In this document: positions 1 to 8,430 of the stretch, in pieces | Layout: every line of letters starts with the position of its first letter | How positions within the stretch are numbered: the first letter of the stretch is position 1 | From: Flavobacteriales bacterium | GTDB taxonomy: Bacteria; Bacteroidota; Bacteroidia; UBA10329 | Reading direction: 5' to 3' | NCBI GenBank assembly: GCA_021739695.1 | Contig: JAIPBM010000011.1 | Coordinates: 1-64,000 of the forward strand | DNA length: 64,000 nt | Position numbers and translations under genes: made by a program | The notes under the pieces: generated by a model | What the model was told of the DNA's origin: nothing | Databases searched by the model: none | What the model saw: the letters and a program-made list of their open reading frames with translations, nothing else

Positions 1-194
1 CCTGAACAAGGAAAAAAAGAAACCCGAGAAGAGAAGAACCGATGAAGGAATTTGAGCTAACCTCACCCTCAGTCCGCTCTACTTGGGAGATGGGTGACTA
101 GGTAGTTAGCCATTAGGCTATATCTGATGACGAGTAGGTCAAGAACTTTCGTGAACGAAGAGATTGCTTCGTCCAACGTTTACCGTTTCGGATT
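1..194. other. left-edge segment: possible gene tail and short repeat-like DNA
   Basis: No complete gene is visible here. Two plus-strand frames are open from the left edge and are rich in Lys, Arg and Glu. One stops at 43-45 and the other at 53-55. Either could be the basic C-terminal tail of a gene that begins outside the window, and I cannot choose between them. Around 150-176 an imperfect hairpin (acgaag/cttcgt arms around agattg) resembles the dispersed 'gagattgcttcgtc' type of intergenic repeat common in bacterial genomes. No promoter or terminator is clear. Confidence 0.3.
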
Positions 195-599
195 TTACTT
201 CTGCATGGCCGTTTTCCAATCTTCTGGAATGGCAACTGATGCATTTGTCTCATAATCGAAGGCTACAATGATGTTGGTGCCTTTTGCCGCAGGACGCTCG
301 CCTTTTTTGTCGGTTTTGGTGATGAGGCATTCGAGCACTACGCTCTTCCCTCCTATTTTAGCGGCACGCATGTAGACCTTTACCTTGTCGCCAAGGAACA
401 CTGGCTCCATATAATCGATGGAGACATGGGCGAGGATGAAGCCGATTTTTTTCCAATCTATTTCGGGTAGTACGGCATCTGTAAACGCCATTCTTCCCAA
501 CTCCATCCAACTCAGATACACTGCGTTGTTTACATGTCCGAGGGCATCGGTGTCTCTAAATCGTAGCTGCGCCTCTACCGTTGCTTGAAATTCTTCCAT
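195..599 (-). CDS. acyl-CoA thioesterase, hotdog-fold (4HBT/YbgC-FadM type)
   Basis: A 134-residue single-domain hotdog protein that probably hydrolyses acyl-CoA thioesters in the cytoplasm. The N-terminal block DTDALGHVNNAVYLSWME (about residues 16-33) is the 4HBT signature. Asp18 in DALGHVNN is in the usual catalytic position, followed by the long central helix. The length is normal for the family, and the ATG start gives residues MEEFQATVEA that lead straight into the first strand. The gene lies downstream of glyA on the same strand, separated by 165 bp that hold a hairpin-like repeat, so co-transcription is possible but not shown. Substrate chain length cannot be read from the sequence. 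Some relatives act on 4-hydroxybenzoyl-CoA. Confidence 0.88.
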   Translation of the reverse strand: MEEFQATVEAQLRFRDTDALGHVNNAVYLSWMELGRMAFTDAVLPEIDWKKIGFILAHVSIDYMEPVFLGDKVKVYMRAAKIGGKSVVLECLITKTDKKGERPAAKGTNIIVAFDYETNASVAIPEDWKTAMQK

Positions 600-670
600 T
601 TTGATCGTTCGTTCTGTCTGATTGCTGTTATTAAAATCCCCCGCCTCTATCGATCCGCAAGCTCCACTTT

Positions 671-703
671 AGAGCCACCCCCTTTTAAAGAGGGAAGGGC
701 TCT
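671..703. repeat. imperfect inverted repeat 3' of glyA
   Basis: Arms agagccacccccttt and aaagagggaagggctct form an imperfect hairpin with a very short loop between glyA and the thioesterase gene. There is no T-run on the minus strand after it, so it is not a typical rho-independent terminator. The CCCCC..TTTAAA..GGG composition resembles dispersed palindromic repeats of Bacteroidota intergenic regions. Confidence 0.4.
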
Positions 704-764
704 TCACGTTTTGAATACGTGCGGCCCGATCGTTGAACTTTCGGATTTATCTGGTTGATGGATT

Positions 765-2039
765 TTAATATGCGAATAGCGGTCGTCCGCTCATCATTTC
801 GTGTACTTCCTTTTTCACTTCGGCAATCACTGCTTCATTTTCTGAATTGGTGATCACGCGGTCCATCAGGTCAACAATGGTTTTCACTTCTTGTTCTTTA
901 AGACCACGAGTTGTGATAGCTGGTGTTCCAACTCGGATACCTGAACTGATCATTGGTGGCTGATCATCGAACGGAACCATGTTCTTATTGACGGTGATTT
1001 CGGCCTTGCCCAAAGCTGCATCGGCATCTTTTCCTGTGACGCCTTTAGAGCGTAGATCGATAAGCATGGAATGGTTGTCTGTGCCGCCAGAAATGATCTT
1101 GTAACCACGGTCCATAAATTCTGCGGCCATCGCTTTTGCGTTCTTCACCATTTGCACGCAGTATTCCAAGTATTCGTCTGAAAGAGCTTCTCCGAATGCC
1201 ACCGCTTTTGCAGCAATTACGTGCTCTAACGGACCACCTTGCATTCCTGGGAACACCGCACTATTAATGAGCATGCTCATTTTCTTGACGGTTCCTTTCT
1301 GTGTGGTCAAACCCCAAGGATTATCGAAATTCTTTCCGATCATGATCATACCTCCACGCGGACCACGAAGCGTTTTGTGCGTGGTAGTGGTAACGATGTG
1401 GCAATCTTCCATTGGATCAGTCAACAAACCTCTTGCAATCAATCCTGATGGATGCGAAATATCGGCCATAAGCAATGCTCCTACTTCATCGGCAATCTGA
1501 CGCATGCGCTTGTAATCCCAGTCGCGGCTGTAAGCAGATGCACCAGCGATGATCATTTTCGGCTTGCATTTTTTGGCCGTTACCTCCATGGCATCGTAAT
1601 CGACCGTTCCTGTTTCGCGACCAACACCATAGAAATTCGCTTTATAAAGAATGCCGCTATAGTTGACCGGTGAACCGTGGGTCAGGTGTCCGCCATGCGA
1701 AAGATCGAAGCCAAGAATATCATCTCCAGGCTTTAGACAGGCCAAGGCCACGGCCGAATTGGCAGATGCGCCAGAATGCGGCTGAACGTTCACGAACTCG
1801 CAATTGAAAAGTGTTTTAGCACGTTCTCTTGCAAAGTCTTCTACTTGATCTACAAACTCGCAACCTCCGTAATATCTAGCTCCCGGAAGTCCTTCTGCAT
1901 ACTTGTTGGTAAGCACAGAACCTTGCGCTTCCATCACTTGCGGACTGACAAAATTCTCTGAAGCGATCAGCTCCACTCCTTCCAATTGTCGGTGATTTTC
2001 CTTCTCGATGAGGTCAAATATTTCTTGGTCGCGTTGCAT
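765..2039 (-). CDS. glyA: serine hydroxymethyltransferase
   Basis: A cytosolic PLP enzyme that converts serine plus tetrahydrofolate to glycine plus 5,10-methylene-THF, the main source of one-carbon units. The 424-residue length is typical. Visible landmarks are ELIASENF near residue 23, the YYGGCEFVD active-site segment near 57, the SHGGHLTHG loop near 114, [10 protein letters not shown] near 193, and the PLP-binding lysine Lys222 in [14 protein letters not shown]. The DISHPSGL form of the usual D-AH-AGL motif is, as I recall, common in Bacteroidota. The ATG start lies at 2037-2039. Its upstream region runs into the repeat array at 2103-2432, so that array lies in the promoter or 5' leader region of this gene. 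Confidence 0.98.
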
Positions 2040-2102
2040 AAAATGTTGGTTTTTCTGTATGACTTAGTGGGCAATCGTAAGCGTCAAATGTACCTAGCGA
2101 GG

Positions 2103-2432
2103 TAGAAATTCGAAGCACGAAATGAAGAAATTCGAAACGGGTTTTGAACATGCACTTCTTGAAATCCCAAATGAGAAAATTCGAATAATTGAAAGCCGAA
2201 ATTCGAAACCGAAATGTGTGAAGCACCAAATTCGAAATCAAGAAATTCGAAAAAGGGAAATTCGAAATTCGAAACGGTGATGTGTGAAGCACGAAATTCG
2301 AAATCAAGAAATTCGAAAAGGGAAATTCGAAACGGTGATGTGTGAAGCACCAAATTCGAAACAAGGAAACTCGAAACCGAAATGTGTGAAGCACGAAAGT
2401 CGAAGTGAAGACGAAAAGTTTAAATTCGAAAC
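2103..2432. repeat. degenerate tandem array of a gaagcacgaaattcgaa motif (left arm of cassette)
   Basis: About 330 bp built from irregular copies of a unit containing tgtgtgaagcac followed by several aaattcgaaa blocks. By eye I count 13 TTCGAA hexamers. Successive tgtgtgaagcac starts are at 2215, 2281, 2339 and 2383, giving spacings of 66, 58 and 44 bp that shrink towards the following gene. Segments 2286-2302 and 2177-2190 have perfect inverted matches of 17 and 14 nt at 2813-2829 and 2808-2821, on the other side of the four-helix-bundle gene. The array holds no plausible gene. It separates glyA from the plus-strand genes, so promoters for either side must lie in or next to it. Confidence 0.9.
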
Positions 2433-2789
2433 GTGACTGGCGAGAAGAAATACGATTTAGAAGACAGAACCCTAGAGTTTGCGAAACGAGTTAGGAGGTT
2501 TATTCGAGAATTGAAGATGGATGTTCCTAACCGCGAAGACGGGAAACAACTGGTCCGTTCATCGGGATCTATTGGCGCAAACTACCGAGAAGCTAATGAT
2601 GGATTGAGCAAGAAAGATTTTATCTATCGAATCAAGATCTGTCGGAAGGAAGCAAAAGAATCGTGTTACTGGCTCCATCTGCTTGACACGCTCGGAAATC
2701 AAATTATGGAAAATTCCAGAACTGAATTACTTCAAGAAGCGAATGAACTTATGCTGATTTTCGGTTCAATTCTGAGAAAGTCTGAATAG
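2433..2789 (+). CDS. four helix bundle protein (S23/IVP family, TIGR02436-like)
   Basis: A 118-residue small alpha-helical protein of the family encoded in intervening sequences of some 23S rRNA genes and related to the Avd accessory protein of diversity-generating retroelements. Recognition rests on YDLEDRTLEFAKRVRRF at the N-terminus and the central SSGSIGANYREA and YRIKICRKEAKESCYWL segments. The biochemical role of stand-alone members is unknown. GTG at 2433 is the likely start. The frame opens only at 2424 after a TAA, there is no ATG upstream, and the next Met falls inside helix 1. The start codon lies directly against the last repeat copy, so the leader is the repeat itself. The gene sits between inverted arrays (2103-2432 and 2790-2890), like an rRNA intervening sequence but outside rRNA. 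Confidence 0.85.
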   Translation: MTGEKKYDLEDRTLEFAKRVRRFIRELKMDVPNREDGKQLVRSSGSIGANYREANDGLSKKDFIYRIKICRKEAKESCYWLHLLDTLGNQIMENSRTELLQEANELMLIFGSILRKSE

Positions 2790-2890
2790 AACCGTGTTTC
2801 GAATTTTAATTATTCGAATTTCGTGCTTCTTCTATTGTTTCGAATTTCCATCTTAGGATTTCGTGCTTTATACTTCAAATGTCGTGCTTA
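2790..2890. repeat. inverted copies of the gaagcacgaaattcgaa motif (right arm of cassette)
   Basis: The segment after the four-helix-bundle stop carries three TTCGAA sites and three cgtgctt endings: ttcgaatttcgtgcttc at 2813-2829, then atttcgtgcttt, then atgtcgtgctta. These are reverse complements of the units in the left array. The last copy contains the ATG at 2879, so that ATG is probably repeat sequence and not the start of the next gene. Confidence 0.85.
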
Positions 2891-3838
2891 ATGAAAAACA
2901 GAATAACCGAACTCTTTCAAATTGAATATCCCATCATTCAGGCAGGCATGATCTGGTGCAGCGGCTGGCGATTGGCAAGTGCCGTGAGCAATGCTGGAGG
3001 CCTCGGAATCATTGGTGCAGGGTCCATGTATCCAGATGTGTTGCGGGAGCACATTCAAAAGTGCAAAGCCGCAACCGACAAACCGTTTGCTGTTAATATC
3101 CCGTTGCTTTATCCGGATATCGACAAACACATTCAGATCATTATTGAAGAGAAAGTTCCCATCGTTTTTTCATCCGCTGGAAGCGCTAAAAAATGGACGC
3201 CTTTGTTGAAAGAGCACGGAATAATCGTGGTACATGTAGTGGCCAGTTCTGCCTTGGCGAAGAAGGTGGAAGATGCTGGTTGCGATGCCGTGGTGGCAGA
3301 AGGATTTGAAGCAGGTGGGCACAATGGGCGAGAAGAAACAACCACAATGGTTCTGATTCCGCAAGCGGTGAATGCCGTAAAAATCCCAGTGATAGCTGCC
3401 GGTGGAATTGGCACTGGAAGAACCATGGCCGCGGCATTTGCTTTGGGGGCAGAAGGCGTGCAGATAGGAAGCCGATTTGTGGCTTCGCCCGAAAGTTCAG
3501 CACACGAATATTTCAAGCAAGCGATAATTGAAGCCAAAGAAGGCGACACCAAATTGAGCATGAAAAAATTGGTTCCTGTGCGTTTGCTGAGGAACAAGTT
3601 CTTTGAAGAAGTTCAAACGCTCGAAAACCGTGGTGCTGAAGGTGACGAACTATTGGAATTGCTTGGACGAGCGCGCGCCAAAAGAGGCATGTTTGAAGGC
3701 GATATGGAAGAAGGCGAATTGGAGATCGGGCAGATTTCAGGCTACATTGATGCCATGAAACCAGCTGGTGACATCGTGAAGGAAATTGTGGGAGAATTCA
3801 ACTACGCGTGCGAACAATTAGGAGGCCTTCGGCTTTAG
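2891..3838 (+). CDS. FMN-dependent oxidoreductase, nitronate monooxygenase/FabK-like
   Basis: A TIM-barrel flavoprotein of the nitronate monooxygenase / 2-nitropropane dioxygenase family. Motifs in order are the N-terminal YPIIQAGM and GGLGIIGAG (FMN phosphate side), AEGFEAGGHNG with the conserved His near residue 140, AAGGIGTGR, and GVQIGSRF. The GGH motif and the C-terminal GQISGYID..PAGDIV segment resemble FabK-type enoyl-ACP reductases as much as nitronate monooxygenases. Either fatty-acid synthesis or nitronate detoxification is therefore possible. I chose ATG 2891 (315 residues) because the in-frame ATG at 2879 belongs to the upstream repeat. The gene is followed after 60 bp, including a palindromic repeat, by an aldo/keto reductase. 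Confidence 0.85.
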   Translation: MKNRITELFQIEYPIIQAGMIWCSGWRLASAVSNAGGLGIIGAGSMYPDVLREHIQKCKAATDKPFAVNIPLLYPDIDKHIQIIIEEKVPIVFSSAGSAKKWTPLLKEHGIIVVHVVASSALAKKVEDAGCDAVVAEGFEAGGHNGREETTTMVLIPQAVNAVKIPVIAAGGIGTGRTMAAAFALGAEGVQIGSRFVASPESSAHEYFKQAIIEAKEGDTKLSMKKLVPVRLLRNKFFEEVQTLENRGAEGDELLELLGRARAKRGMFEGDMEEGELEIGQISGYIDAMKPAGDIVKEIVGEFNYACEQLGGLRL

Positions 3839-3861
3839 ATAGAGAATAGAAAAACCAGTAA

Positions 3862-3886
3862 TGGCGTATGACCATACGCCCCTACA
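3862..3886. repeat. partial copy of the GTAGGGGCGTA palindromic element
   Basis: Perfect 8-bp arms GGCGTATG (3863-3870) and CATACGCC (3873-3880) with a 2-nt loop are followed by cctaca. The string tacgcccctaca (3875-3886) is identical to the end of the 71-bp element at 17844-17914. This looks like a one-ended or eroded copy of the same family, placed between two plus-strand genes. Confidence 0.75.
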
Positions 3887-3898
3887 TAACGAGACAAA

Positions 3899-4852
3899 AT
3901 GAAACAACTGACATTCAGAAACGGAGACAAACTCGACATTCTCGGACTTGGAACTTGGAAATCTAAACCTGGTGAAGTTTACACAGCCATCCGCGAAGCG
4001 ATCAAAATCGGATACCGCCATTTCGATTGTGCCTTCATTTATATGAATGAAAAGGAGATCGGGCAGGCTTTTGCCGATGCGTTCAAAGATGGTGACGTGA
4101 AACGGGAGGATGTGTGGATCACTTCGAAGCTTTGGAACAACTCTCATGCTCAAGAAGATGTGATTCCGACCTTGAAGAACACGCTTACCGACCTTCAGCT
4201 CGATTACCTCGACCTATACTTGGTGCATTGGCCGCACGCGTTCAAGAAAGAATTTGTTGGAGCGAGTTCGCTAGAAGAAGTGCATGTGGCAGACACGCTT
4301 CCGCATATTGAAACATGGCGAGGAATGGAAGCGGCAGTAGCGCAAGGCTTGGCCAAACATATTGGCGTTTGCAATTTCAATAAGCACAAACTGAAAGCGC
4401 TTTCGGAGCAAGCAACCATAGTTCCTGAAATGAACCAAGTGGAATTGCACCCAATGCTTCATCAAACGAATCTGTTGGATTTCTGTAAGAAGAATGGAAC
4501 ACACGTTACGGCCTATTCCCCGCTTGGATCGCCTGATAGAAGTGCAGGAATGAAAGCGGCCGATGAACCGAACTTGTTTGAAATTCCTACAATCGTTGAA
4601 TTGGCTGAAAAGCACAATTGTTCTCCCGCTCAGATCATGATCGCATGGGCCATGGAACGCGGAACGGCCGTCATTCCAAAATCGGTGAATGCTGGAAGAT
4701 TGAAGCAGAATTTTGAATCTAAGGAAATCCAACTTTCAGCAGAAGACATGGCCAAAATGACTGCATTGGATAAAGGCTATCGCTTTGTGAAAGGACAGTT
4801 TTGGGCCTTTCCAACAAGTGGTTACACGGTAGAATGGCTTTGGGATAAATGA
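3899..4852 (+). CDS. aldo/keto reductase
   Basis: A 317-residue NADPH-dependent oxidoreductase of the AKR superfamily that reduces aldehydes or ketones to alcohols in the cytoplasm. The catalytic tetrad is visible: Asp43 and Tyr48 in HFDCAFIYMNE, Lys77 in ITSKLWN, and His110 in YLVHWP. The IPKSVN segment near residue 260 binds the adenosine 2'-phosphate of NADPH. The start GLGTWKS near residue 16 and the length fit the AKR1-like branch. It is preceded by an acaaa-rich leader after the palindromic repeat at 3862-3886. The natural substrate cannot be told. Confidence 0.93.
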   Translation: MKQLTFRNGDKLDILGLGTWKSKPGEVYTAIREAIKIGYRHFDCAFIYMNEKEIGQAFADAFKDGDVKREDVWITSKLWNNSHAQEDVIPTLKNTLTDLQLDYLDLYLVHWPHAFKKEFVGASSLEEVHVADTLPHIETWRGMEAAVAQGLAKHIGVCNFNKHKLKALSEQATIVPEMNQVELHPMLHQTNLLDFCKKNGTHVTAYSPLGSPDRSAGMKAADEPNLFEIPTIVELAEKHNCSPAQIMIAWAMERGTAVIPKSVNAGRLKQNFESKEIQLSAEDMAKMTALDKGYRFVKGQFWAFPTSGYTVEWLWDK

Positions 4853-4925
4853 GTCTTAAGACGTCAGATTTCAGATGGTAAAGTCTGTTGCCTGATATCT
4901 CTCATCTGATATCTAGTTAAAAACC
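4853..4925. repeat. repeat-rich intergenic spacer (cagatttcagatg / catctgatatct)
   Basis: Between the aldo/keto reductase and the next gene, agatttcagatg (near 4866) pairs with one mismatch with catctgatatct (near 4905), and ctgatatct occurs twice in direct orientation. The composition resembles low-complexity dispersed repeats of Bacteroidota intergenic DNA. It could form a weak hairpin after the reductase gene, but no clear T-run follows. Confidence 0.4.
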
Positions 4926-4951
4926 TTCGTTCGATTATGTTTCTTTGGGGC

Positions 4952-5473
4952 ATGAAAAATCTCGTCACCCTTTTTTCCTTTTTCGTTTTCTCTTCTTCCC
5001 TTTTCGCTCAAGGAAATATCATGCTGATGCCCTTTGAACCATTGATGAACGCCACTTGGAAGGCTGAAGGAAAATGGAGCGATGGAAAACCTTTCAAGCA
5101 GGAAATCGAATACAAATGGAGCGATGGTGAAGAAACTGTGGAAATGAAAACCATGAGTTATTTGGACTCGACTTTCAAAGAATTCGGTCACTTTTCAGAT
5201 GGTGTTCACACTTGGGACACGACTTCCAATTCCATCCAATTCCGTATTCAAGATGTGAACGGGAAGGTGATAGAAGGCTCTATTATGACCAAGCAGAAAA
5301 CAATCATGTACAATTATGCCATCGAATCTGAAAACGGCATGAAAACCTACATGACCGATGCGCTTATCTGGATCAAACCAGACAAGTACATGTACAAAGT
5401 GGGCACCATGAAGGATGATGAGTGGGAAGCTATTTATCTAGAAACGTACTTCTTTAAGAAATCAATCGATTAA
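4952..5473 (+). CDS. exported lipocalin-like (DUF1579-like) protein
   Basis: A 173-residue protein of unknown function. Starting at ATG 4952, it has a classic signal peptide (MKNLVTL, hydrophobic core, cleavage after SLFAQ near residue 20). The mature part alternates strands with WKAEGKWSDGKPF, YKWSDGEETVEMKTM and a final W-E-IYLETYF strand, as in lipocalin-like beta-barrels such as DUF1579. That family call is tentative. An in-frame ATG at 4937 would add MFLWG and weaken the signal peptide. The 3' end overlaps the convergent GIY-YIG gene by 4 bp. Confidence 0.65.
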   Translation: MKNLVTLFSFFVFSSSLFAQGNIMLMPFEPLMNATWKAEGKWSDGKPFKQEIEYKWSDGEETVEMKTMSYLDSTFKEFGHFSDGVHTWDTTSNSIQFRIQDVNGKVIEGSIMTKQKTIMYNYAIESENGMKTYMTDALIWIKPDKYMYKVGTMKDDEWEAIYLETYFFKKSID

Positions 5474-6324
5474 TCAGATTTTGATTCAAAATCCTTTAAA
5501 GAGGTACCGTCTTTCTGTTTCCACTCAGTGAGCCCATTTGCATTTCTTCCCAAAACGAGGCAGGCTGCTGCTGAAGGACTGCTGAACACATAATCCTCCT
5601 GTAGGAATAATCGTCCGTCTTTGTTTCCTACGGAGGAAGAATTTACAATTCGATTTCTCTGATCATCAATGCTTTTCGTGATTGAAGGAACAGTTGAATT
5701 GGCAATTTCAGAACCTTCGAATACCACAAATCCATCAGATGTTGGCTCTCCGCTTGCATTGGCCCCTCTGGGCGCCTTGATGTGAAACGCGCCTTTTGAT
5801 TTCTTCCCGACCGGGGTTTCTCTTTTGTCCTCGAAAACTTTATGACCTAGGGTGTTCACCAGGATTTTAACGTTACTAATGAACTCCTCCATCTCCGAAG
5901 TATCTGATTCTGATATAGATGATTGAGTTGGAATTGTATTGTTGTCAATTTGATATCGATTGACTTTCGTGGCTATTGTATGAAGTCGGTTTTCGAGATA
6001 CTTGACGTGCGCCTTGTTTAAATTTTCGTCCTTACTAACGAAGACGATTGCTTCATTCCAAAATTCTTTTTGAGTGAGGTGTTGTCCGAGGCGCTTTAAA
6101 ACAGTCTCGGCTTCTCCAATGTAAACCTTATCCAAACCGGATTCATCCTTGCCAAAAAGAAGATATATTCCGGTATTGAGAAGATCAGGACGGTCGGAAC
6201 ATTCTTTAATCTTAATACGAGGAATTTTGTAAGCTTTTCCTGTCCAGTTTGATAGTTCGCATGTCATCCGGCCATTCGGTTCTCCATCAATCAAGAATAG
6301 CTTTATCGTTTTTCCAAATCCCAT
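5470..6324 (-). CDS. GIY-YIG nuclease with C-terminal DUF4357-like domain
   Basis: A 284-residue protein with a GIY-YIG nuclease core at about residues 48-125. GIY is at 52-54, YIG at 68-70, the conserved Arg at 78 in VLKRLGQH, and the metal-binding Glu at 111 in KYLENRLH, so the active site looks intact. The C-terminal segment VFSSPSAAACLVLGRNANG through WKQKDGTSL matches the DUF4357 pattern. Family knowledge: GIY-YIG enzymes include homing nucleases, UvrC and a few type II restriction enzymes. The DUF4357-linked members have no settled role that I know of. It lies 27 bp downstream of exonuclease III on the same strand, and a C5 DNA methyltransferase is divergent just beyond. Confidence 0.85.
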   Translation of the reverse strand: MGFGKTIKLFLIDGEPNGRMTCELSNWTGKAYKIPRIKIKECSDRPDLLNTGIYLLFGKDESGLDKVYIGEAETVLKRLGQHLTQKEFWNEAIVFVSKDENLNKAHVKYLENRLHTIATKVNRYQIDNNTIPTQSSISESDTSEMEEFISNVKILVNTLGHKVFEDKRETPVGKKSKGAFHIKAPRGANASGEPTSDGFVVFEGSEIANSTVPSITKSIDDQRNRIVNSSSVGNKDGRLFLQEDYVFSSPSAAACLVLGRNANGLTEWKQKDGTSLKDFESKSD

Positions 6325-7194: not shown

Positions 7195-8430
7195 ATGGCG
7201 ATAAGGGTTGTAGAGCTTTTTGCAGGTGTTGGTGGTTTCCGTTTGGGCTTGGAACGCGCCAGTCCTGAATTTGATGTTGTGTGGAGCAATCAGTTTGAGC
7301 CAAGCTCTAAAATTCAGCACGCGAGCAGGGTTTACGAAGCACGGTTTCCGCATGCCAATCATTGCAATCAGGATATTTCTAGCGTTCCAACCAAGGAAAT
7401 TCCTGACCACGACCTCTTGGTTGGAGGTTTCCCTTGTCAGGATTATTCGGTGGCTTCTACACTGAAGCTTTCAGGCGGATTGATCGGCAAGAAAGGCGTG
7501 CTGTGGTGGCAGATCTTTCGCATCCTAAAAGAGAAAGAAAAGCATGCGCCCAAGTTTCTGATGTTGGAAAATGTGGATCGTTTACTGAAATCGCCTGTGG
7601 CGCAGCGAGGCCGCGATTTTGCTGTGATGCTTTCGAGTTTGAATCAACTTGGCTATGCGGTTGAATGGCGCGTGATCAACGCTGCCGATTATGGCATGCC
7701 GCAGCGCAGAAGACGCATTTTCCTGCTTGGGTACAAAAAAGGAACGGCTGCTTTCAATCAGCTTTCGAAACTGAAAAATCCTGAAAGTTGGATTTTGGAG
7801 CAAGGCTTATTTGCAGACTCCTTTCCTGTTATGGCTGATGGAAAAGTGACAAGTGACAACCTGGAAAGCGACCTTGTAGCGCTTAGCGAATCTTTTAACA
7901 AAGGCAAGAAACTGAGTCCGTTCTTCAATTCGGGATTCATGATAAATGGTAAGTTCTATACCATGAAAACAAAAGCGAATGCTGATGAGCAAGAAGTCCA
8001 GTTGAAAGACATCATTCTTCCTCTGGATGAAGTGCCTGAAGCATTCATCATCGATGAATCTGAGCTTGAGAAATGGAAATATCAGAAAGGCGCGAAGAGC
8101 GAACAGAAATTCAGCAAGGCGGGAAATTACCACTACAACTATGCGGAAGGCGCCATGGTTTTTCCCGATCCATTGGACAGACCATCTCGCACCATCATTA
8201 CGGGAGAAGGCGGTAATTCGGCTTCGCGTTTCAAACATGTGATCTTTCAGGATGGCGTATACCGCAGACTGACACCCGTGGAATTGGAACGCCTGAATCA
8301 ATTTCCGGACGACCACACGAAACTGAAAGGCACCACCGATGCCAGACGCGCCTTTTTTATGGGCAATGCCTTGGTGGTTGGTATCGTAGAAAGATTGGGC
8401 AAGGCCATTGCCAAACAAAACAAGGCGTGA
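7195..8430 (+). CDS. DNA (cytosine-5-)-methyltransferase
   Basis: A 411-residue C5-cytosine methyltransferase that transfers a methyl group from SAM to a cytosine in a specific DNA site. Motif I is VELFAGVGGFRLGLE (6-20). Motif IV is GGFPCQDYSV with catalytic Cys81. Motif VI is ENVDRL (125-130), motif VIII is QRRRRIF (170-176), and motif X is GNALVVG near the C-terminus. About 190-330 is the variable target-recognition region, and a typical motif IX segment, PSRTIITGEGG, follows. All catalytic motifs are present. No restriction enzyme is directly adjacent. The nearest nuclease genes are the divergent xth and the GIY-YIG protein. It could be an orphan regulator-type methylase or part of a dispersed restriction-modification set. 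Confidence 0.95.
   Translation: MAIRVVELFAGVGGFRLGLERASPEFDVVWSNQFEPSSKIQHASRVYEARFPHANHCNQDISSVPTKEIPDHDLLVGGFPCQDYSVASTLKLSGGLIGKKGVLWWQIFRILKEKEKHAPKFLMLENVDRLLKSPVAQRGRDFAVMLSSLNQLGYAVEWRVINAADYGMPQRRRRIFLLGYKKGTAAFNQLSKLKNPESWILEQGLFADSFPVMADGKVTSDNLESDLVALSESFNKGKKLSPFFNSGFMINGKFYTMKTKANADEQEVQLKDIILPLDEVPEAFIIDESELEKWKYQKGAKSEQKFSKAGNYHYNYAEGAMVFPDPLDRPSRTIITGEGGNSASRFKHVIFQDGVYRRLTPVELERLNQFPDDHTKLKGTTDARRAFFMGNALVVGIVERLGKAIAKQNKA

Follow-up and report, generated by a model that had tools for sequence, protein, structure and literature searches.

An S23-family gene between inverted heptamer arrays in a Flavobacteriales bacterium: a candidate mobile element related to rRNA intervening sequences

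The locus and its features

The window, i.e. the whole stretch of 64,000 nucleotides that was analysed, contains near its left end a gene for a 118-aa four-helix-bundle protein of the S23/IVP type (positions 2433-2789, forward strand), which lies between two arrays of short repeats. The upstream array (2104-2432, forward strand) is built of degenerate heptamers (GAAGCAC, GAAATTC, GAAATCA, GAAACGG and others) and is G-rich on the sense strand of the gene, and the downstream array (2796-2889, reverse strand) carries the same heptamers inverted. The element is located outside any 23S rRNA gene, between the genes for a serine hydroxymethyltransferase (SHMT; 765-2039, reverse strand), the left flank in the empty-site comparison described below, and a nitronate monooxygenase (NMO)/FabK-like protein (2891-3838, forward strand), which is syntenic with this left neighbour. 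The downstream array stops 1 nt short of the ATG at 2891. The S23-family gene is the sole gene between the arrays; a transposase or recombinase is absent there. The description in an earlier note on this DNA, namely an intervening sequence (IVS)-like cassette placed outside rRNA, with an S23/IVP gene between opposed arrays in protein-gene intergenic DNA, is thus confirmed.

The gene was assigned to TIGR02436 (E 1.3e-20; 73.6 bits against a curated cut-off of 24) and to PF05635, 23S_rRNA_IVP (E 4.1e-13; 49.9 bits against a curated cut-off of 33.8). Its predicted start codon, GTG at 2433, lies in ...GAAACGTG... and overlaps the final repeat unit, as the earlier note had also recognised in calling the start codon fused to the last repeat copy; no nearby in-frame ATG was found before position 2517. 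Autocorrelation at lag 7 (z 6.0 upstream and z 3.0 downstream) gave a repeat unit of 7 nt, so that the window holds degenerate 7-nt tandem units in intergenic DNA, as expected of heptamer repeat arrays.

The complementarity score between the two arrays was 73, whereas 500 dinucleotide shuffles averaged 28 and did not exceed 46, none of them matching the inverted score observed. The two inverted matches quoted previously proved exact: one of 17 nt (GAAGCACGAAATTCGAA at 2286-2302, forward strand, with its partner at 2813-2829, reverse strand) and one of 14 nt (AAATTCGAATAATT at 2177-2190, forward strand, with its partner at 2808-2821, reverse strand). The upstream array extends beyond these pairs and has a second-order repeat of about 58-66 nt. 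When the region was folded as RNA, a z of -4.0 was obtained, which none of 20 shuffles equalled, and in the predicted structure the arrays close a stem around the gene; the window element therefore has terminal inverted repeats that would close a stem round a sense ORF. An Rfam search of positions 1-6000 of the window gave 0 matches. Further along the window, judging by reading of the translations, the ORF at 7195-8430 is DNA cytosine methyltransferase-like and that at 5470-6324 (reverse strand) is GIY-YIG-type-like.

Heptamer arrays in the TIGR02436 family

The source genome contains 12 TIGR02436 genes, nearly all of which are bracketed by inverted short-repeat arrays, each with its own motif (e.g. 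TTAGGTG, GTCGATA, GAGTTTC and AAGTCGT). Two sets of loci were compared. The first comprised 99 Bacteroidota-side loci of the source genome and its relatives, picked by protein profile alone. The second comprised 80 loci from a sequence scan of a multi-phylum collection covering Planctomycetes, Acidobacteria, Clostridia, candidate phyla, Proteobacteria, an archaeon and others; 77 of them were used in the flank-matching and array tests. Thirty GNAT genes from the same genomes as the first set served as a control.

In the first set, the upstream flank matched its own inverted downstream flank with a score of 36.9, compared with 20.2 for mismatched pairs, a difference reached in 0 of 2000 permutations. 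The multi-phylum loci behaved alike (38.8 matched, 20.2 mismatched), and the GNAT control showed no own-flank matching (20.5 versus 19.5). Autocorrelation peaks at 7, 14, 21 and 28 nt appeared at the S23 loci only and not at the GNAT controls. With one null used throughout, significant arrays were found at 148 of 176 TIGR02436 loci (79/99 and 69/77) and at 4 of 30 controls, the loci being non-independent draws in that some represent orthologous sites within a single genus and the conserved peptides of one subfamily were used to find the second set. At about 16% of the loci neither flank has a significant array. The period of the significant flanks (n=227) was 7 nt in 171 and 8 nt in 44.

The arrays have a median size of 5.7 units (IQR 4.7-8), with a mode of about 5-5.5. 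The distance from the end of the upstream array to the first residue of the profile is about 35 nt, and that from the stop codon to the downstream array is 6.5 nt. Polarity is also kept: read on the sense strand, 124 of 135 upstream arrays are rich in G and 90 of 105 downstream arrays are rich in C. Heptamer arrays are thus a hallmark of the TIGR02436 family and not a quirk of the window locus. On the other hand, the long stem around the gene that had been supposed from the window stands only in part. The predicted fold of the window closes it, but the exact stem is not generally conserved: in a test by shuffling of unit order, the order of heptamers was collinear between the arms at p<0.1 in 15 of 94 loci. 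Since this signal is weak, strict co-linear inverted repeats were rejected as a description of the arms.

Genomic placement

The elements fill the junction between two genes: the array starts where the upstream gene stops (median -3 nt relative to the stop codon), and 8 nt separate the end of the element from the next ATG. Both neighbours run in the same direction as the S23 gene at 128 of 167 loci and both in the opposite direction at 6 of 167. The corresponding numbers in the gene control were 16 and 3 of 29, and part of the bias towards the sense orientation is therefore ordinary operon structure. Most of the family members in this sample, which was assembled by protein profile and sequence scan, are placed between protein genes, and the idea of a cassette that had "spread from, or to, rRNA" appears to be the wrong frame.

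Some individual placements deserve mention. On an Anabaena plasmid, a type I-D CRISPR locus has an S23 element between its cas6 and cas4 genes, and the heptamer array of this element (L242) is very long. In two congeners (L011 and L034; 89% protein identity), an element conserved in both separates what appear, by reading, to be the two portions of a divided methionine synthase locus.

Filled, empty and truncated sites

The SHMT-NMO pair is conserved in the genus of the window, and in three congeners (L140, L143 and L145) the element is absent and the junction intact. In a fourth congener (L141) the gene is absent, and the SHMT-NMO junction carries short motif traces and a different hairpin.

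Empty sites were resolved at the nucleotide level on cyanobacterial plasmids. The empty version of site C (L247, flank identity 97.8%) reads AAAAAGTAATTAACAAATAAATATG, and the filled version reads AAAAAGTAAT, then the element (AAATCAG...CTTTG), then TAATTAAC, so that 4-5 bp are duplicated. The junction without an element reads TAG-GTT-ATG at site A, and in the filled version the element occupies exactly that point. One Nostoc strain has three related plasmids, of which one is filled at site A, one is filled one gene further by a different element and one is empty at both places. Three copies (L243, L244 and L249) share 78-83% nucleotide identity over about 410 nt and a TCAGRAG heptamer but have unrelated flanks, i.e. 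they lie at three sites. Truncated (L248) and gene-less (L264) versions were found at sites that are filled on other plasmids, and a comparison of L243 with L246 revealed gain or loss in whole heptamers. Site C alone gave a clear short target duplication; elsewhere the junctions are ambiguous, or flank sequence is extra or missing, and no constant length of target-site duplication was seen across the junctions. The Calothrix plasmid pair L239/L240 was considered as a case of transposition and rejected, because it represents a duplicated region (about 90% identical overall).

Mobility of the element at the DNA level, which the earlier note had put forward for the cassette, is thus well supported, both by the empty sites in the genus of the window and by those on the plasmids. 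At the same time, some insertions are common to congeneric species (e.g. L019/L104, L020/L108 and L036/L063), hence many copies are stable over long times, and such copies might be domesticated.

A different and unrelated long hairpin insert was observed at S23-element junctions in two cases, at positions 873-1119 of L250 and just upstream of the NMO gene in L141. In relatives, the same junctions hold an S23 element or are empty. Junctions of this kind may be hot spots for insertion in general.

Motifs, cognate genes and gene-less arrays

Each heptamer is specific to its locus or genome. The window motif, GCACGAAATTCGAA, has 9 matches in its own genome and 0 in 8 congeners. Counting all motif places, gene-bearing or not, the total for the motif of L186 is 317 in its own genome and 0 in 9 others, and for that of L204 it is 11 in its own genome and 0 in the other genomes tested. 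The 317 matches, all to a GTATTGA-type heptamer pattern in an Ignavibacteriae MAG (G402), represent an extreme expansion.

Elements at different sites share a motif above background only when their proteins are more than about 60% identical, as did 29% of 76 pairs at 60-70% protein identity and 5 of 8 at 70-80%; below about 60%, no above-background motif is shared. This suggests that the motif travels with the gene and drifts quickly. The presence of GAAATGCGAAGCA and GTGCTTC at the window site of one congener (G008) raised the possibility that the motif is derived from the target, i.e. that the array is seeded from host sequence. It was set aside as a general rule, because proteins more than 60% identical tend to share motifs at different sites and because a single heptamer is common to three cyanobacterial copies whose sites are unrelated.

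Seven of the nine window-motif matches lie outside the window element, and no relative of the window protein was found in the stretches examined around them. Another place in the source genome (L008, C39:27128; positions 1497-1563) holds a gene-less mini inverted array of the window heptamer, with homoserine acetyltransferase-like and OsmC-like genes (by reading) as neighbours; it looks like a non-autonomous derivative. At the start of contig C22 (L005, positions 1-470) there are about four tandem 118-nt units with the window motif (three full matches), and no four-helix gene was found in the stretch examined. More intergenic copies of TTTCGAATTTCGTGCTTCATCC are present near the end of contig C24 (L006 and L007), beside other repeated sequence.

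As a prediction test, the Xanthomonas repeat GGGAATC was searched for across 369 genomes. Arrays of it were found in a single genome (G400), where inverted GGGAATC arrays flank the only TIGR02436 gene, itself disrupted, and where further gene-less inverted GGGAATC pairs occur elsewhere. The reversed control pattern gave a signal in a second genome, whose S23 gene is surrounded by GGGCYAA-type arrays. The outcome that would have spoken against the cassette, i.e. arrays without genes, unrelated flanks and no mobility, is not what was observed: gene-less arrays carry the motif that is cognate to a gene of the same genome.

The S23 protein

In pairs with measurable divergence, taken both from conserved sites and from copies at different sites, dN/dS was 0.02-0.14, and these ratios show the predicted S23 protein to be under strong purifying selection. 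This is unlike the case of Coxiella, where it was suggested that S23p is not made (PMC4990558).

The window protein was modelled with four helices (AlphaFold2, mean pLDDT 90) and can be confidently predicted to be a four-helix bundle. A Foldseek search with this model gave 2rld and 2gsc, both of the S23 family, as the best matches, followed by Avd of Bordetella phage; the model aligns with Avd 4dwl at a TM of 0.73. The solved relatives 2gsc and 2rld have 5 chains each, and XCC0516 is a homopentamer according to a citation in PMC4990558. By analogy, the window protein is probably pentameric. Among the other family members, that of L009 hit PHROG 3206, annotated as "Avd protein of DGR", with an E of 9.7e-8. 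Viral contigs yielded no close relatives of the window protein.

Proposed mechanism and alternative explanations

We think it fairly probable that the feature in the window is one copy of a mobile element of about 0.4-0.8 kb, which consists of a G-rich heptamer array, an S23/IVP gene and an inverted array, and whose protein recognises its own heptamers. The S23/IVP protein, a pentamer in two solved relatives, would bind the heptamers at both ends of the element, probably with one heptamer unit per subunit, and would thereby bring the ends together or protect them for transfer. Such recognition is suggested because it is the motif rather than the order of units that is preserved, because the arrays have about five units and because of the cognate specificity. 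TRAP, a protein that wraps short motifs recurring at a fixed spacing, is mentioned here as an analogy only. As no nuclease, recombinase or reverse transcriptase (RT) is encoded by the element, cutting, copying and joining would be performed by host enzymes. Fast gain, loss and mutation of units, together with co-selection with the protein, would lead to a heptamer that is the lineage's own. In transcripts, the two arrays may pair, which would allow RNase III to release the element from operon mRNA in the way that IVSs leave 23S rRNA, where the cut is not followed by religation; this would make the insertion nearly harmless. Such RNA-level excision is plausible by analogy with the rRNA IVSs.

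It is possible, yet in our opinion doubtful, that the unit works mainly as RNA, i.e. that RNase III cuts the stem formed by the paired arrays from operon mRNA, that the protein or the freed RNA is the product and that RNA-level copying spreads it. The sense orientation in operons (128 versus 6 loci), the predicted RNA stem round the window gene (z -4.0) and the in vitro cleavage by RNase III of the Coxiella IVS, which has an S23p ORF, a terminal stem and heptamers (PMC4990558), are all consistent with this explanation. However, the mostly non-collinear order of heptamers argues that exact pairing is not the conserved feature, and RVT_1 was not found in 22 of 29 genomes of relatives, though TIGR02436 was present in 26 of the 29. 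This survey likewise leaves unsupported the dependence on an RT, in which the element would be a retroelement akin to diversity-generating retroelements, with the four-helix protein as an Avd-like partner of an RT acting in trans. The PHROG 3206 match of L009 and the structural alignment of the window model with Avd point in that direction; against it, most surveyed host genomes are without detectable RVT_1, there is no RT near the window gene (the source genome has two RVT_1 matches, on C1 and C44, and none on C11), and no template/variable repeat pair was seen. We consider this retroelement quite improbable.

An immobile autoregulatory gene, whose protein would bind the adjacent arrays as operators or translational control sites, would explain why the arrays directly abut the start and stop codons and why some sites are conserved across species. 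It would leave unexplained the two-sided inverted arrays, the empty sites, the same element at unrelated sites and the hundreds of motif copies elsewhere in one genome, and is improbable in our view. Even less can be said for the arrays being neutral slippage products, i.e. simple repeats that came to lie beside S23 genes by chance. Slippage would give whole-heptamer gain and loss as seen between L243 and L246, and polymerase slippage has been put forward as the source of heptamer over-representation (cited in PMC4679880). The large difference between matched and mismatched flanks, with nothing of the kind at control genes, the fixed orientation and polarity, and the motifs that track the cognate gene make this explanation hardly credible.

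Returning to a mobile element with a protein that reads its own ends, we see about even chances that it represents a new class, distributed over many prokaryotic phyla, in which a non-catalytic pentamer is combined with heptamer arrays as private ends under a lineage-specific code, and of which rRNA IVSs, the STRRs, the Xanthomonas GGGAATC repeats and the Beggiatoaceae TAACTGA repeats would be members or gene-less offshoots. The element seems to account for several "mystery" repeats of bacteria and to tie them to the intervening sequences that split rRNA. Two old puzzles, the role of the S23/IVP protein and the origin of intergenic heptamer arrays in cyanobacteria, xanthomonads and others, would then become one. 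If the protein does read its own heptamer, nature would supply, in this family, a great many protein/heptamer pairs with which to work out a recognition code, and a class of repeats that is very common in bacteria would be explained.

Relation to known elements

In the open PubMed Central literature, we found no paper that names TIGR02436 and, apart from the report of heptamers in the Coxiella IVS, none that links heptamer arrays to the S23 family; most subscription journals and preprints lie outside this scope. Of the heptamer papers of 2015, one found no association with mobile elements (PMC4692102) and another no evident mechanism of transfer (PMC4679880).

The closest known system is the 23S rRNA IVS with an S23p ORF, known from Leptospira, Coxiella and Xanthomonas, which has the same protein family, a terminal inverted stem, an ORF in the sense orientation and a sporadic distribution, and which the literature regards as selfish (PMC4990558). 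The earlier note's proposal of a kinship with rRNA IVSs is strengthened by the Coxiella 23S rRNA IVS, in which tandem heptamers are situated just 5' of the S23p start codon (PMC4990558), a trait shared with the window-type elements. Unlike the IVSs, which interrupt helix 9, 25 or 45 of 23S rRNA, window-type elements lie between protein genes and have two-sided arrays, a heptamer that varies with the locus and gene-less relatives in the genome. The rRNA IVSs are the known relatives of the element.

The STRR heptamers of filamentous cyanobacteria (Mazel et al. 1990, cited in PMC4692102) are likewise degenerate intergenic heptamer arrays. In the account given of them in PMC4692102 they appear without a protein or mobile element, whereas here they are tied to a cognate gene, as cyanobacterial S23p genes are flanked by STRR-type heptamer arrays. 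The GGGAATC arrays of Xanthomonas, mostly of four units and with about 70 convergent inverted pairs per genome, were treated as G-quadruplex repeats without a general association with mobile elements (PMC4692102); here, arrays of this heptamer were found round the S23-family gene of G400. The TAACTGA repeats of Beggiatoaceae, Cyanobacteria and Bacteroidetes form intergenic arrays near start codons, with two to six units per array, and their patchy distribution suggests horizontal transfer, with no evident transfer mechanism (PMC4679880). Compared by description, their likeness to the present elements lies in the intergenic heptamer arrays; the S23 gene is not mentioned in PMC4679880.

Two further systems share other features with the element. 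Avd of the diversity-generating retroelements has the same fold as the window protein and a distant sequence match to its paralogue L009, but the window element is without the RT, template repeat and variable repeat of such retroelements. REPIN/RAYT systems and MITEs likewise combine a gene-bearing copy with many gene-less inverted copies that share an end motif within one genome; in contrast to these, the S23 gene is no transposase, and at the ends the place of a single fixed terminal repeat is taken by tandem heptamer arrays.
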